DNA of 64,000 bases from Halomontanus rarus (GTDB taxonomy: Archaea; Halobacteriota; Halobacteria; Halobacteriales; Natrialbaceae), in assembly GCF_017357405.1 (NCBI RefSeq), contig NZ_CP071597.1:1860001-1924000 (forward strand), written 5' to 3'. A model generated the notes under the pieces. The model ran no database searches. It saw only the letters and a program-made list of their open reading frames with translations, and had not been told where the DNA came from. Shown piece after piece: positions 9,636-14,340 of this stretch; positions within the stretch are counted from its first letter, which is position 1, and each line of letters opens with the position of its first letter. A program made the translations under genes and the position numbers.

Positions 9636-10196
9636 TCACGCACCGTCTCTGACGGCGACGACGTCGGTTTCGACCGGGACCGCGTTCGTGATGGTGTCCA
9701 TCAGCGGCGACGTGGTTTCGACCCGGTCCCGAAGTTCGGCGAGTTCCGCCTCTGACGCGTCCGCGTCGACGTACGCGGTGCAGGTCACGGAGTTGTACCC
9801 GGCACGGACGTCCTCGGAGATGCCGAGGAACCCTCGGAGGTCGACGTCACCCTCGAGTTCGAACCGGAGGTCCTCGAGTTCGATACCCATGGCGGCGGCG
9901 TTGGCCGCGTAACCGACGCTCAGACACGATCCGAGGGCGGCGAGGAGGAGTTCGACCGCGTTCGGAGCCGTCCGCTTCCCGAGGATCTGTTCGGGTTCGT
10001 CGCCCTCGATCCTGAACTCCTGGGTGTGGATTCGCTCGCCCGCCTGATCGAAGTCGTCGATCGCCGTCACGCACTGGAGGCCGTCGGTCCACTCTGTTTC
10101 CGCTCGGAACCGAAACTGGCCGATCGTCTCGTCGCCCGTAATTGCTTCGACCGCCTGGCCGAGTTGCGCTACGTCTACGCCGTTTGTAGTTGACAT
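9636..10196 (-). CDS. OsmC-family protein
   Basis: The protein has 186 residues from the ATG at 10196. It shows the OsmC fold signature: an N-terminal beta region (FRFRAETEWTDGLQ), GKRTAPNAVELLLAALGSCL with the resolving-type Cys on the central helix, and a C-terminal VETTSPLMDTITN helix. OsmC/Ohr proteins reduce organic hydroperoxides with two cysteines. Only the ALGSCLS cysteine is obvious here; the first catalytic Cys near the N-terminus is not, apart from Cys in GLQCV (about residue 44), so activity is uncertain. It is 64 bases downstream of the AhpD-like gene, with no cassette of its own in the gap, so the two are probably cotranscribed. Confidence 0.85.
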   Translation of the reverse strand: MSTTNGVDVAQLGQAVEAITGDETIGQFRFRAETEWTDGLQCVTAIDDFDQAGERIHTQEFRIEGDEPEQILGKRTAPNAVELLLAALGSCLSVGYAANAAAMGIELEDLRFELEGDVDLRGFLGISEDVRAGYNSVTCTAYVDADASEAELAELRDRVETTSPLMDTITNAVPVETDVVAVRDGA

Positions 10197-10260
10197 GATC
10201 TCGTCTCTTTCTTGTGACTGTTTGCTGGTGAAACCGGTCTGTACTGGTCGACCGGACGAT

Positions 10261-10665
10261 TCAGTCGGCACCCGCCTGTGCGGCCTCCTGCTTCTCGAGG
10301 TACTCGACGATCTCCGACGTTTCGGAGACGAAGTCGTCCAGATCGACCTGGTTTCCGTGAAGGATCGTCGAGAAGTACTGAGTCGAGCCCGCGAGGGTGA
10401 CGGTCTCCTCGAGTTCCGCCTCCGTGACGTCCGCCAGTCGCGCCTCTTCCTTGTGGAAGTGCACGCAGTAGGGGCACTTCGTCGCGGCCGCGACCCCGAC
10501 CCCGATGAGGGCTTTCTCCCGCGGGGAGAGTTCTGTTTCCCCGAACGTGAGATCCCGAAAGATCCCCCAACTGTGGTCGCTGGCCGGCTCTGCGAGGTCT
10601 TCCATCCAGCTCGGAACCTGTCCGAGCGACGCTTCGATTTCCGTCCGTGTTTCGGTTGACACCAT
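10261..10665 (-). CDS. AhpD/carboxymuconolactone-decarboxylase-like protein
   Basis: This 134-residue CMD domain carries the redox motif CPYCVHFH at about residues 64-71. The CxxC with a following His is the catalytic core of AhpD-like disulfide reductases that regenerate peroxiredoxins. The preceding helix KALIGVGVAAATK is also typical. It is the first gene after cassette copy E1 and is followed by OsmC. An antioxidant role is inferred from the motif and from the neighbour. Confidence 0.88.
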   Translation of the reverse strand: MVSTETRTEIEASLGQVPSWMEDLAEPASDHSWGIFRDLTFGETELSPREKALIGVGVAAATKCPYCVHFHKEEARLADVTEAELEETVTLAGSTQYFSTILHGNQVDLDDFVSETSEIVEYLEKQEAAQAGAD

Positions 10666-10700
10666 TGTGGCTCACCGGATAGAGCTACGAGTGAAACGAG

Positions 10701-10775
10701 TATGTAGGCATCTAGTGATATTCGGCCGGTCACTGACCGCTTTGCAGACGGTGAGCGGCGGTCATCAACTGCAAG
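10701..10775 (-). promoter_or_regulatory. Operator/promoter cassette copy E1 (before the AhpD-like gene)
   Basis: On the plus strand it begins TATGTAGGCATCTAGTGATA, continues with GGTCACTGACCGC, and ends with an imperfect inverted repeat, TTGCAGACGGTGA (742-754 of 10 kb) facing GTCATCAACTGCAA (761-774). It ends 35 bases upstream of the AhpD ATG. Three further copies lie at 11421, 11797 and 12221, each before a minus-strand gene. Confidence 0.7.
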
Positions 10776-10845
10776 CGCGTGCCCTGTCCGCTGTACAGAT
10801 CGAGCCGCTCGGCCGACGATCTGACACGATTGAAAAAAACGGGTA

Positions 10846-11391
10846 CTAGGTGCCAGTACTCTCGCCGGTGTCCGCTGGCCGGGGTTCGGATCGGATTCCC
10901 CGGTACGCGAGTCCGGCACCCACCACGAAGACGATCGTCGCGAGGTAGACGGGGCCGAGGTGCGACACCCAATCGTGAGTGAAGAGATCCATGTAGTGCA
11001 TCGGAAGGGCGAGAGCCAGTCCGACGACGGCGGCGACAACCGCGGTCGCCCACGCCCACAGTAGCCCACTCTGCACCCCGTACCACGCGAGCGCCGTGAT
11101 CGCGACCCCGGTGGCGATGATGAACGCCGCGGTGGCGACGTGGAGGTGGTCGATGTAGTGCACGACGGCCGGGTCGAGCGCGTCGAGCTCCGCTCGAGTG
11201 ACTCCGTTCAGGGTTGCGACGCCGAGTTCGAAGCCGCTACCGAAGAACGTCCTGATGAGGAAGACGACTCCGTAGGCGATGAAGGCCACACCCGCGAGTG
11301 CCATCAGAAGCGAGCCGGTCCGTACGCCGCGTCCGAGTTCGTGGTCGGTGTCTGTCCCGTGTCCGTCAATCGTTGGTTGTTCTACACTCAT
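10846..11391 (-). CDS. Four-TM membrane protein of unknown function
   Basis: The protein has 181 residues from the ATG at 11391 (a TTG two codons upstream is unlikely). Four hydrophobic segments lie at about residues 27-50, 83-103, 108-130 and 146-165. Several His residues flank or enter the membrane region (VVHYIDHLHVATAAF, LPMHYMDLFTHDWVSH), which could bind metal or heme, although that is speculative. I do not recognise the family. It has its own cassette copy (E2) 30 bases upstream, which groups it with the AhpD, DUF1059 and zinc-ribbon genes. Confidence 0.75.
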   Translation of the reverse strand: MSVEQPTIDGHGTDTDHELGRGVRTGSLLMALAGVAFIAYGVVFLIRTFFGSGFELGVATLNGVTRAELDALDPAVVHYIDHLHVATAAFIIATGVAITALAWYGVQSGLLWAWATAVVAAVVGLALALPMHYMDLFTHDWVSHLGPVYLATIVFVVGAGLAYRGIRSEPRPADTGESTGT

Positions 11392-11420
11392 TGTCAACGA
11401 GAGAGGTTACGATTCGGGTG

Positions 11421-11479
11421 AGTATGTAGGCATTTGGTGATATTCCAGCAGCCACTGGCCGCCTTGCAGCCGATGCAAG
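11421..11479 (-). promoter_or_regulatory. Operator/promoter cassette copy E2 (before the 4-TM gene)
   Basis: It matches E1 at AGTATGTAGGCATTTGGTGA and in the later CACTGGCCGCCTTGCAG, but the inverted-repeat centre is shortened (TTGCAGCCGATGCAAG). This is the most compact copy and may show the minimal site. It lies 29 bases upstream of the ATG. Confidence 0.65.
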
Positions 11480-11584
11480 AGAATCGAAACCCGCAAACAG
11501 TGAACTCCGTACTACTCGTACGATTCGACGGTCGAAAATTCACCGTCAAAATGGAGTGAAACGGTGCCAGAGCCATCCACGTCG

Positions 11585-11758
11585 CTAGACGACCTGTAGA
11601 TGCTCCTCCCTGAGTTCCTCGTCCGTGAATTCTTTCCCGTGGACGTCTTTCATGTGTTTCCTGGCCAGTTCGACCGCTTCGTCTTCGTCTTCCGACTGGA
11701 TGATGAATCGGCAATCGGCCGCTGCCGATTCACAGTCGAGTTTGCGTGCTTGTGCCAT
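11585..11758 (-). CDS. DUF1059 small protein
   Basis: This 57-residue protein starts MAQARKLDCESAAADCRF and ends with the DUF1059 signature AVELARKHMKDVHGKEFTDE. The family is annotated as a predicted small metal-binding protein with conserved Cys and His, and no reaction is known. Cassette E3 lies 38 bases upstream. It belongs to the same small-gene group as its neighbours. Confidence 0.8.
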   Translation of the reverse strand: MAQARKLDCESAAADCRFIIQSEDEDEAVELARKHMKDVHGKEFTDEELREEHLQVV

Positions 11759-11796
11759 GTGGGTTCGCCCCGAGTAGACGGTACGAAGGCGCGGAT

Positions 11797-11870
11797 TAGG
11801 TAGGCACCGCGTGACAGTTCGCCACTCGCTGCACGCCGTGCAGCCGGTGCACGGCGGTCACCGGTTGCAA
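11797..11870 (-). promoter_or_regulatory. Operator/promoter cassette copy E3 (before the DUF1059 gene)
   Basis: It aligns with the others as GGTAGGCACCGCGTGACAG, CGCCACTCGCTGCACGC and the dyad TGCAGCCGGTG / CACCGGTTGCA (840-866 of 11 kb). It is followed directly by a CGA trinucleotide run at 11871-11890. Confidence 0.65.
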
Positions 11871-11890
11871 CGACGACGACGACGACGACG
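11871..11890. repeat. CGA trinucleotide run
   Basis: Almost seven perfect CGA units abut the outer edge of cassette E3. The run lies outside any convincing gene and could vary in length between strains. Confidence 0.8.
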
Positions 11891-11990
11891 TGCGCTCGAG
11901 TCGAGTGCGACCGCTCTCGTCCTCGTCGAACGTCCGCCGTTCGCGTCGGGAAAAGCGACCCCTCGTGAGCCGATGTCGCGCGGACACCGA

Positions 11991-12173
11991 TCAGCAGAAG
12001 TACACCCAGAATTCGTGATCGGCCGGGCAGACGACGGTCGTGTGGTCGCCGTAGAGTGCGACCGAGCGTCTGATCTCGAGATCGACGTCGTCGTCGGGAA
12101 TCGAAATGGTCGTTTCTCGCTCGCAGTGCGGACACGATACGGTCGCCGTCTCCTGTCTCGGGATCGTCGCCAT
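11991..12173 (-). CDS. Small zinc-ribbon-like protein
   Basis: This 60-residue protein has two cysteine pairs: CPHC at residues 14-17 (VSCPHCERETTI), and Cys49 with the C-terminal Cys60 (VVCPADHEFWVYFC). The second pair is widely spaced and includes a His, so zinc binding is likely but not certain. A very acidic linker (IPDDDVDLEIRR) lies between them. Cassette E4 is 47 bases upstream, and the HTH regulator ends just before that cassette. Confidence 0.7.
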   Translation of the reverse strand: MATIPRQETATVSCPHCERETTISIPDDDVDLEIRRSVALYGDHTTVVCPADHEFWVYFC

Positions 12174-12220
12174 TGGAATATTCGCCTCGAGTTCGGTGCG
12201 TCAAACAACGAGCGGGAAAC

Positions 12221-12295
12221 GGATGTAGGCATCTCGTGAGCATCGACCACTCACTGACCGTCTCGCAACCGGTGACCGGAAGTCACCAGTTGCAA
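12221..12295 (-). promoter_or_regulatory. Operator/promoter cassette copy E4 (before the zinc-ribbon gene)
   Basis: This is the clearest copy. It reads GGATGTAGGCATCTCGTGAG, then CACTCACTGACCG, then GCAACCGGTGAC (265-276) facing GTCACCAGTTGC (282-293), an 11-of-12 inverted repeat with a 5-base spacer. It starts 6 bases after the stop codon of the HTH regulator gene. Confidence 0.75.
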
Positions 12296-12300
12296 TCCGG

Positions 12301-13110
12301 TCACTCGATGGCCGTCTCGAGCGCGAGCGGCCGCGCCTCGCGTCGATAGCTGTCGTAGGTCGATTCCGCCCACTCGCGTGCGTCCGGAGCGTCGGTGTCG
12401 AGAAATACCTGCACCGTTCCGCTGTTGGCGTTGTAGCCGCTGATTCCGATCCGATCGTCGAAGAGACTGACTCCGTAGGCCGGCAAGTCGTCGTGCAATC
12501 GGACCGTCAGGTGGCCGCTCTCGAGGGGCTCGGCGCAGTGTTCCGAGTACGTCGAGATGATGTACCGGGCGACGCTCGGCGGATCGATGATCTCCGTATC
12601 CATGCCATCGACGATTCGCCGGGACAGTTCGTCCTTACACGGCTCGAGCAAGGCGACGTCGAACCCGACGAACCGAAATCGGTCCGTCTCCCGGAGGAGC
12701 GAGGCGAATCGGTTCACCGGACCGTAGGGATCGTCGATCGAGGCCTCGGTCACGACCGCATCGGTCCCCATCTCGAGGGTGAACCCGCTCGCCTCGGGCG
12801 GGAGCCACTGCCAGACGTCCCGAAGCGTCTGCTCGGTTTCGATCAGTTCGATCAGGTCCTGCATCCCCGACGCGACGAACGCACCCAGTTGCGTCGCCTC
12901 GAACTGGTGTCCGTCCCGCCTGATCCACCGTCGATGTTCGAACTCGCGTAACGTCCGTCCGATCGTGGACGTCGACGCTTCGGTCAGTTCCTGGAGGTCG
13001 GCCCGACTCCGTGGACGTTCAGCTAAGGCGACGAGCGCAGTGACGCGGTGGTCCGACCGCGCGAGGAACTCGATATCGTCGATAGGGGATCGAGTGTTTC
13101 TTGATAACAT
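12301..13110 (-). CDS. HTH transcriptional regulator with C-terminal DUF1724-type domain
   Basis: The protein has 269 residues from the ATG at 13110. An N-terminal winged helix (about 15-75: ALAERPRSRADLQELTEAS, STIGRTLREFEHRRW) is followed by a long alpha/beta domain that includes RYIISTYSEHCAEPLESGHL and YGVSLFDDRIGISGY. This form matches archaeal HTH regulators with a DUF1724 effector domain. It lies directly upstream of the four cassette-controlled genes in the same orientation and is the best candidate for the factor that binds them. A perfect 12-bp palindrome three bases before its own start suggests autoregulation by it or by another factor. Confidence 0.85.
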   Translation of the reverse strand: MLSRNTRSPIDDIEFLARSDHRVTALVALAERPRSRADLQELTEASTSTIGRTLREFEHRRWIRRDGHQFEATQLGAFVASGMQDLIELIETEQTLRDVWQWLPPEASGFTLEMGTDAVVTEASIDDPYGPVNRFASLLRETDRFRFVGFDVALLEPCKDELSRRIVDGMDTEIIDPPSVARYIISTYSEHCAEPLESGHLTVRLHDDLPAYGVSLFDDRIGISGYNANSGTVQVFLDTDAPDAREWAESTYDSYRREARPLALETAIE

Positions 13111-13350: not shown

Positions 13351-14340
13351 ATGAGAGCCGCGATCACCGGAATGCTACCCGGGTTCGTCGTCCTCTGTCT
13401 CGGGGCCGTGCTGGCTCGAGGCCTGTCGGCGGTCGTGGGGGTCAACGAGTTGCTGCTCGCGATCGGGCTCGGCGTCCTCCTGACGAACAGCGTCGGCGTT
13501 CCCGAACGACTCCGTCCCGGGCTGGCGACGCACAAGAGCTGGCTCGCCGCGGGGATCGTCTTACTCGGCGCGTCGCTGACGATCGATTCGATCCTCGAAA
13601 CCGGCGCTTCCGTGCTCCTTTTGATGGTCGCCACGGTGGCGGTGACGATGATCACCGTCGAGGGGATCGCCCGAAACGTCGCCGGACTTCCAGAGCGATT
13701 GGGCTCGTTGCTCGCCGCCGGTGCCGGGATCTGCGGGGTCTCTGCGGTCGTCGCCGTCGGCGGCGGGATCCAGGCCCGAGAAACGCAGATCGCCTACGCT
13801 GCGGGCGTCGTGTTGGTGGTAGACGCGATCACGATCGTCGTCTACCCGATCGTCGGCGCCCAGCTCGAGCTCTCCGGGATCGTCTTCGGCGTCTGGGCCG
13901 GCGTGAGCATGCTCTCGACCGGACCGGTGGTGGCGGTCGGGTTCGCCCACTCGGAGGTCGCCGGCCAGTGGGCGACGATGACGAAACTCGCCCGCAACGC
14001 CCTGATCGGGGCCGTGGCGCTCGGATACGCGAGCTACTACGCGCGCCGCGGATCCGGTGGGTCGACCTCGTGGAAACTGCTGTGGGCGAACTTCCCGACG
14101 TTCGTCCTGGGATTTCTCGCGGTCGTCGTGCTCGCGAGTGCCGGCGCCTTCTCGCCGGACCAGCAGGCCTCGATCGCGAAGGCGGTCGACTGGCTGTTCC
14201 TGCTCGCGTTCGTCGGACTCGGGACCGAAATTCGGATCGGAGATCTCAGGCGGATCGGTATCGGCCCCGCGCTCGTCGTGTTCGCCGCGATGGTGCTCGC
14301 GAGCGTCCTCTCGCTGGCGGTCGCACTGGCGGTGCTATGA
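13351..14340 (+). CDS. YeiH-family (UPF0324) putative sulfate/anion permease
   Basis: This 329-residue integral membrane protein has about ten hydrophobic segments. Family marks are LLLAIGLGVLLTN near residue 35, the re-entrant-like GAGICGVSAVVAVGG near 123-137, and WLFLLAFVGLGTEIRI near the C-terminus. Family members are annotated as putative sulfate exporters, and the substrate is not established here. It is divergent from the HTH regulator at 12301. A short frame upstream stops inside its ATG (ATGA), which I do not consider a gene. Confidence 0.85.
   Translation: MRAAITGMLPGFVVLCLGAVLARGLSAVVGVNELLLAIGLGVLLTNSVGVPERLRPGLATHKSWLAAGIVLLGASLTIDSILETGASVLLLMVATVAVTMITVEGIARNVAGLPERLGSLLAAGAGICGVSAVVAVGGGIQARETQIAYAAGVVLVVDAITIVVYPIVGAQLELSGIVFGVWAGVSMLSTGPVVAVGFAHSEVAGQWATMTKLARNALIGAVALGYASYYARRGSGGSTSWKLLWANFPTFVLGFLAVVVLASAGAFSPDQQASIAKAVDWLFLLAFVGLGTEIRIGDLRRIGIGPALVVFAAMVLASVLSLAVALAVL

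Follow-up and report, generated by a model that had tools for sequence, protein, structure and literature searches.

Archaeal regulators that could serve as models for a new operator act from well-defined positions at the core promoter (papers are cited by PubMed Central, PMC, accession and drawn on in excerpt). OxsR carries a single TrmB winged helix (PF01978) and has the motif CGGnCGnGCG (PMC9426492). Both OxsR and TrmB activate from upstream of the TATA box and its neighbor, the transcription factor B recognition element (BRE) (PMC9426492, PMC10817205), and archaeal Lrp activators occupy sites immediately upstream of the BRE, two or three helical turns apart (PMC2995911). FilR1 of Methanosaeta harundinacea belongs to a two-component system with methanogenesis targets (PMC3991700). 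The haloarchaeal core promoter consists of a BRE (CGAAA), a TATA box (TTWT) and a WW at -10 (PMC4983044). Here we analyze a 64,000-nucleotide stretch of the Halomontanus rarus genome (NZ_CP071597.1, positions 1,860,001 to 1,924,000; hereafter the window), in which four copies of one element, E1 to E4, precede genes on the minus strand beside a gene for a putative transcription regulator.

From sequence comparisons, we consider it likely that E1 to E4 are the operator-promoters of a single regulon under the FilR1/HVO_A0261-type regulator encoded next to them and close homologues of that protein, which would bind as cooperative dimers to control detoxification and thiol genes. The recurrence of element and regulator in other genomes probably marks an uncharacterised control circuit for chemical or oxidative stress. 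A first-pass annotation of the window had proposed a mini-regulon here: its shared operator has stood, whereas "mini" has not, given three more full sites elsewhere in the same genome and recurrence across the lineage. That annotation knew of no description of the grouping, in agreement with the open-licence PMC literature, where the matches listed (titles and abstract starts) include no description of the regulon and nothing on HVO_A0261; for DUF1059 with archaeal regulation, the same literature returned desert-soil work only.

Results

One cassette with an 18-bp lattice and a putative built-in core promoter

The window holds a single ungapped family of 88-nt direct repeats with exactly four members (10687-10774, 11409-11496, 11783-11870 and 12208-12295), which are 67-72% identical to the first copy. 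Scored with a matrix from 69 sites of other genomes, to which the genus of the window contributed no site, the copies reach 94.3, 84.8, 73.2 and 72.2 bits. Reverse-strand shadows of the array score -4.2, -17.5 and -24.6 bits, the strongest remaining match in the 64 kb has -24.7 bits, and the best of 30 first-order Markov resamples reaches -15.6 bits. Of the 69 sites, 65 come from genomes that lent no training site to the earlier profile R1 (below), and four (one in L137, two in L140 and one in L147) coincide with training sites. The repeat family and the matrix scores of 72-94 bits thus bear out the four shared copies first reported.

Across the 69 sites, the element consists of a CA-N5-TG dyad repeated four times, at intervals of exactly 18 bp. 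Left halves (CA) occupy columns 6-7, 24-25, 42-43 and 60-61; right halves (TG, or TG or TA in the last dyad) occupy columns 13-14, 31-32, 49-50 and 67-68. Both halves are intact in 43, 61, 52 and 59 sites for dyads one to four, respectively. The column profile has self-correlations of 0.63 and 0.46 at lags 18 and 36, respectively, with values of at most 0.24 at all other lags from 5 to 39, and symmetry centers fall at columns 28, 37 and 46. The motif parts singled out in the first-pass annotation (GTAGGCA, which reads TGCCTAC along the genes; GTGA; CACT/ACCG; and the TTGCA...CGGTGAC dyad) are all present, and all belong to this one lattice, which had been overlooked.

The inner five bases are conserved in the last dyad alone, as C-N-A-R-A (columns 62-66); the second dyad has a conserved CG instead. 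Abutting the last dyad is a TATA-like CTACAT (columns 70-75; T71 97%, A72 95%), followed 18 bp downstream by CGTA (columns 88-91). Read along the genes, the consensus is roughly TTGCAACCGGTGACCNCCGNTCACCGGCTGCAAGGCGGTCAGTGACTGGCCGAATATCACGAGATGCCTACATAC, about 12 variable bases, then CGTA. CNARA, CTACAT and CGTA were compared, by order and spacing, with the haloarchaeal BRE, TATA and -10 elements: CNARA resembles the BRE, whereas CTACAT deviates from TTWT. The last dyad with its BRE-like bases, the TATA-like box and CGTA would therefore make up a complete promoter, with the BRE built into the last operator unit.

By subtraction, the start codons lie 35, 29, 38 and 47 nt from the lower boundaries that the first-pass annotation set for the copies, matching its 29-47 bases. 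Long inverted repeats in the element might suggest a structured RNA leader and not a DNA operator, an explanation that we consider very improbable on positional grounds: the dyads lie upstream of the TATA-like box, and the start codons in the window follow 38-55 nt after the first base of the box, which leaves room for a short leader only. Of 68 assigned starts in other genomes, 35 lie 30-59 nt from the box and 16 lie at 60-199 nt; another 16, for the most part those of second genes, lie at 200-320 nt, and one value is aberrant.

Comparison with related loci indicates that the 18-bp repeats behave as true units. In the nearest relative, taken to be Natronoglomus mannanivorans, the orthologue of E4 (L031:7807-7948) contains seven tandem 18-bp units and is 54 bp, or three units, longer. 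Conversely, a two-unit site with the same pitch (C1:1793737-1793767; L201) lies between a paralogous regulator of the H. rarus genome (C1:1792758-1793516; 35% identical to the window regulator) and a BBE-type FAD oxidase gene, directly before the latter. Natural unit counts are therefore two (the paralogue's target), four (as a rule) and seven (the relative). The two-unit pattern matches four times in the 5.17-Mb genome, at E2, E3, E4 and this site, and misses E1 because of its imperfect third dyad. With three matches for the backward control, the count by itself is no evidence; the placement of the matches is. Among six paralogue flanks read by eye, one has a clear two-unit site. The site at the 35%-identical paralogue suggests that this code, in versions with fewer units, may extend to the HVO_A0261/FilR1 family at large. 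The pattern TTCACNARRTAGNTA, allowing one mismatch, is not enriched in the H. rarus genome (two matches versus five for the backward control).

Downstream of two regulators that are 42-44% identical (L069, L070), we noticed by eye two dyads at a 17-bp pitch before a TAG-containing box, preceding FAD-linked oxidase-like and alpha/beta-hydrolase-like starts. These are possibly a sister code with a different pitch.

Site and regulator occur together

The profile scan of haloarchaeal genomes proposed in the first-pass annotation did return further copies at the same gene families, beside orthologues of the regulator, so the idea withstood the half of its proposed refutation that can be computed. 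We ran an iterated matrix over 41 regions: the window itself and 40 neighborhoods of regulator homologues, including one in the H. rarus genome. The threshold was one bit above the best score on reversed sequence, with an additional filter on columns 67-72. There were 85 raw matches, but the array is quasi-palindromic and about half were its reverse-strand shadows; 44 sites in 32 regions were kept. In 29 of the 41 regions, a co-oriented site starts within 200 bp after the regulator.

A sequence-only site profile (R1) built from 41 of the 44 sites was then applied to two overlapping genome samples, with sites accepted up to an E-value of 1e-5 and regulators up to 1e-70. The family sample (117 genomes) contained 75 genomes with both, one with the site only, five with the regulator only and 36 with neither; for its 82 genomes without a training site, the corresponding numbers were 54, zero, four and 24. 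The order sample (293 genomes) contained 72 with both, none with the site only, seven with the regulator only and 214 with neither. Outside the family of the window, the regulator was found in 30 of 30 site-bearing genomes, two of which had lent training sites. Presence and absence of site and regulator vary together even within single genera.

Neither target genes nor proximity accounts for this association. In the order sample, 75 genomes without the regulator do have the BBE-oxidase family, yet none of them has a site, so target presence does not explain the co-occurrence. Likewise, 32 of the 103 strongest order-wide sites lie more than 5 kb from any regulator used (71 lie within 5 kb), and proximity alone is thus no explanation.

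These counts also bear on whether the operator might be read by another protein, such as a Brz-like zinc ribbon or an unlinked factor, with the FilR1-type gene a mere neighbor. A Brz-like protein is itself among the targets, but site-bearing genomes have a regulator homologue in 72 of 72 (order) and 75 of 76 (family) cases, the site commonly starts shortly after the regulator, and site subtype varies with regulator clade (below). We regard this explanation as improbable.

The sole family-sample genome with a site and no close regulator is G013 (C13:30373-30460; L123), where the site stands before the apparent end of an ArsM-like methyltransferase gene; it is perhaps a relic after regulator loss.

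Sites precede a short list of gene families

Targets were assigned by the best match within 320 nt, with DUF1059-4TM pairs (4-TM, a protein with four hydrophobic segments) counted under 4TM. By this rule, 68 of the 69 sites of other genomes precede a gene of one short family list, 67 of them cleanly (five of the 67 loci themselves lent the reference protein); the same rule applied to random points of the regulator regions gave 3 of 690. The 68 targets are 4-TM proteins (19, mostly behind a second DUF1059 type), OsmC (15, two subfamilies), BBE-type FAD oxidases (11, three subfamilies), DUF1059 (five), ArsM-like methyltransferases (five), cupins (five, one by an internal piece alone), Brz-like zinc ribbons (four), AhpD (three) and an Rv2258c-like methyltransferase (one). 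We write "ArsM-like" because the remote target L117 scored 237.8 bits against the ArsM arsenite methyltransferase model NF008823, below its cut-off of 263. DUF1326 and alpha/beta-hydrolase genes were also found behind weaker sites. The site not counted as clean (L151, G109) has the cupin matched by an internal piece, whose extrapolated start precedes the box, and possibly serves a frame-broken target; the 69th site is followed by what resembles an OsmC start, at which point the sequence of its locus stops.

Four copies within 1.6 kb could in principle be a dispersed repeat or small mobile element that has settled between genes by chance. Conservation is restricted to the dyads and core-promoter columns, however, the orientation toward the gene is constant, and the clean placement of 67 of 69 foreign sites before the same families already contradicts this explanation, to which we assign next to no probability.

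The H. rarus genome contains seven full sites, four of them in the window. The seventh scores 37 bits; below it come reverse-strand shadows and then scores of at most 16.9. Two of the sites outside the window have no regulator homologue in the surrounding 8 kb.

In two other genomes, second loci (L107, G019:C2; L153, G068) carry what appear to be a DUF1059-4TM pair and a BBE oxidase gene, each behind its own site, repeating the layout of one operator per unit elsewhere in the genome.

The regulator and its clades

Two domains, both above Pfam cut-offs, qualify the regulator as an HVO_A0261/FilR1-type one-component regulator: HVO_A0261_N and FilR1_middle, the latter previously named DUF1724. 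Pfam searches up to E 0.01 found no match to the TrmB winged helix PF01978 and none to an Lrp-type helix-turn-helix or RAM domain; a search of solved structures gave weak Crp/Fnr matches alone (best E 0.15). Cys158 (counted from the ATG at 13110; LEPC, in the FilR1 domain) is conserved in 34 of 41 regulators, so that thiol sensing is conceivable.

The sites can be sorted into TGCCTACAT-type and TAGCTACAA-type subtypes. Of 13 sites next to regulators of one clade, 11 have TAGCTA at the core, against none of 16 next to the other clade, and two regulator paralogues of the H. rarus genome (that of L053 and that of the window) differ in site subtype as their clades do. Across the sequences compared, site subtype follows regulator clade. 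A covariation of recognition helix and site (the residue preceding the conserved R of STxxRT, G or R, with TGCC or TAGC) was considered and set aside: in the tree, the R-type regulators form a single clade and so would represent one event, not independent evidence.

The locus

Six minus-strand genes fill positions 9636-13110 (Table 1), with the identities assigned in the first-pass annotation: AhpD/CMD followed by OsmC, a 4-TM protein, DUF1059 and a Brz-type zinc ribbon. A gap of 5 bp separates the TTGCAA end of E4 from the stop codon of the regulator (12301-12303), noted there as abutting that element. The OsmC gene starts 64 nt after the AhpD gene, has no element of its own in the window and is probably the second gene of the E1 unit. 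Some assignments stop short of a subfamily: the zinc ribbon scores 23.7 bits against the Brz equivalog NF041795 (cut-off 100), the OsmC protein misses the cut-off of the SACOL1771 peroxiredoxin subfamily, and the 4-TM protein has no family match in Pfam or NCBIfam.

Divergent from the regulator is a YeiH-family (Cons_hypoth698) transporter gene (13351-14340, plus strand), a neighborhood that is conserved in the nearest relative (L031). The window scan with the 69-site matrix found no site upstream of it.

Table 1. Genes and elements of the locus, with the sites found elsewhere in the H. rarus genome
Feature	Position	Strand	Remarks
Regulator	12301-13110	-	HVO_A0261_N PF25213, 92.5 bits (cut-off 35); FilR1_middle PF08350, 99.6 bits (cut-off 27)
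Brz-type zinc ribbon, 60 aa (target 1)	11991-12173	-	PF23454, 75.1 bits
DUF1059 protein, 57 aa (target 2)	11585-11758	-	PF06348, 34.7 bits (cut-off 21.1)
4-TM protein, 181 aa, four hydrophobic segments (target 3)	10846-11391	-	
AhpD/CMD-family protein, 134 aa (target 4)	10261-10665	-	PF02627, 49.6 bits; TIGR00778, 41.6 bits (cut-off 27.8)
OsmC-family protein, 186 aa	9636-10196	-	PF02566, 69.8 bits (cut-off 27.5)
E1	10684-10776	-	Cassette of the AhpD-OsmC pair; 93 columns
E1 dyads	10763-10771, 10745-10753, 10727-10735, 10709-10717	-	By column arithmetic; third dyad imperfect (CA-N5-CG)
E1 predicted core promoter	TATA-like 10702-10707; CGTA 10686-10689	-	ATG 42 nt after first box base
E2	11406-11498	-	Cassette of the 4-TM gene; first dyad degenerate
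E2 predicted core promoter	TATA-like 11424-11429; CGTA 11408-11411	-	ATG 38 nt after first box base
E3	11780-11872	-	Cassette of the DUF1059 gene
E3 predicted core promoter	TATA-like CTACCT 11798-11803; CGTA 11782-11785	-	ATG 45 nt after first box base
E4	12205-12297	-	Cassette of the Brz-like zinc-ribbon gene
E4 predicted core promoter	TATA-like 12223-12228; CGTT 12207-12210	-	ATG 55 nt after first box base
Site outside the window	C2:373297		Before an OsmC-like gene; a close regulator paralogue lies alongside
Site outside the window	C2:1134295		Before an Rv2258c-like methyltransferase gene
Site outside the window	C1:1384581		Before a BBE oxidase gene

Discussion

Together, the comparisons support enlarging the earlier four-gene idea to a predicted lineage-wide regulon with a base-level operator code. 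In the mechanism that we propose, each dyad would be bound by one winged-helix dimer of the regulator, and neighboring dimers would load cooperatively along the array. Because 18 bp corresponds to about 1.7 turns, they would spiral around the helix. The last dimer would act at or beside the BRE and TATA box, and every target gene would answer one common signal from its own promoter.

Several observations weigh against this proposal. No site was found in nine of the 41 regions searched, nor, at the cut-off used, in seven of 79 (order) and five of 80 (family) regulator-bearing genomes. The regulator's own promoter has no site by the 69-site matrix. Although that set of sites was taken from other genomes without the filter on columns 67-72, it was found with a model trained on filtered sites. 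The Fisher values for co-occurrence (1e-23 and 6e-61) ignore shared ancestry. AlphaFold2, run on four sequences, gave a mean predicted local distance difference test score of 37.5 and no usable dimer model. Finally, the proximal dyad overlaps the BRE, a position associated with repression by TrmB in Haloarcula hispanica.

This last point leads to a serious competitor, which we rate at somewhat below even chances: the same regulon and regulator, working as a repressor whose array-bound dimers cover the BRE in the proximal dyad and exclude TFB until a ligand releases them. Detoxification genes are often held off by one-component repressors, and the BRE-like CNARA does lie inside the proximal dyad; for TrmB of Haloarcula hispanica, overlap with the BRE accompanies repression, apart from one noted exception (PMC10817205). 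On the other side, the TATA-like CTACAT departs from TTWT yet is strongly conserved, which would be odd for a strong promoter that needs just a block, and the core promoter is preceded by three of the four dyads, the side from which OxsR and TrmB activate. Since most of the array stands upstream of a non-consensus TATA box, where Lrp-type, OxsR and TrmB activators work, we slightly favor a regulator that activates a weak core promoter rather than one that keeps TFB out.

The proposed regulon may respond to a reactive small molecule, be it peroxide, hypochlorite or another electrophile, with Cys158 of the FilR1 domain as a possible sensor. A peroxide or thiol signal is plausible, given the OsmC and AhpD targets and the conservation of the cysteine in most regulators; a wider role in small-molecule detoxification fits equally well, because the targets also include BBE-type FAD oxidases, methyltransferases and cupins. 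A more elaborate scheme, to which we give rather low credence, is a modular array code: dimers would stack at the 18-bp pitch as a short helical filament, the number of units would set the threshold of each gene, regulator and TFB would meet on the BRE bases, and one electrophile-type signal would drive a lineage-wide detoxification regulon with gene-specific dose responses.

If the proposed regulon holds, a regulator family of many haloarchaeal genomes gains a predicted base-level DNA code and a regulon. DUF1059, 4-TM, Brz-like zinc-ribbon and DUF1326 proteins would be tied to OsmC, AhpD, BBE oxidases and ArsM-like methyltransferases, so that the function of these families of unknown role becomes testable for all at once. 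The element also offers a natural system, with variants of two, four and seven units, for learning how TBP/TFB-dependent transcription is switched by phased dimers that sit both ahead of an archaeal BRE and on it.

How, then, does this circuit relate to those already described? Brz is the bacteriorhodopsin-regulating zinc finger. It shares the zinc-ribbon domain PF23454 with the target at 11991; here, the Brz-like protein is a target gene. FilR1 of Methanosaeta harundinacea shares the FilR1 middle domain, by Pfam family name; the text of PMC3991700 contains neither "palindrom" nor "footprint", and thus offers no FilR1 operator for comparison. For TrmB of Haloarcula hispanica and Halobacterium salinarum, whether a target is activated or repressed varies with where the protein sits relative to BRE/TATA, and the placement of the array may matter likewise, but TrmB senses sugars, has metabolic targets and belongs to a different protein family (excerpts of PMC10817205). 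The array itself recalls Ptr2 and Ss-LrpB, archaeal Lrp activators or switches, in that several dimers would occupy regularly spaced sites next to the BRE in cooperative complexes; its 18-bp spacing, however, differs from the two or three turns typical of Lrp. OxsR, a TrmB-family regulator of the hypochlorite response in Haloferax volcanii, is similar in being a haloarchaeal one-component regulator with a motif upstream of BRE/TATA and thiol/redox-type targets; OxsR requires a conserved cysteine, a residue type that the window regulator also has. What sets the window system apart from OxsR is its pairing of HVO_A0261_N and FilR1_middle domains with an array of dyads at 18-bp intervals.

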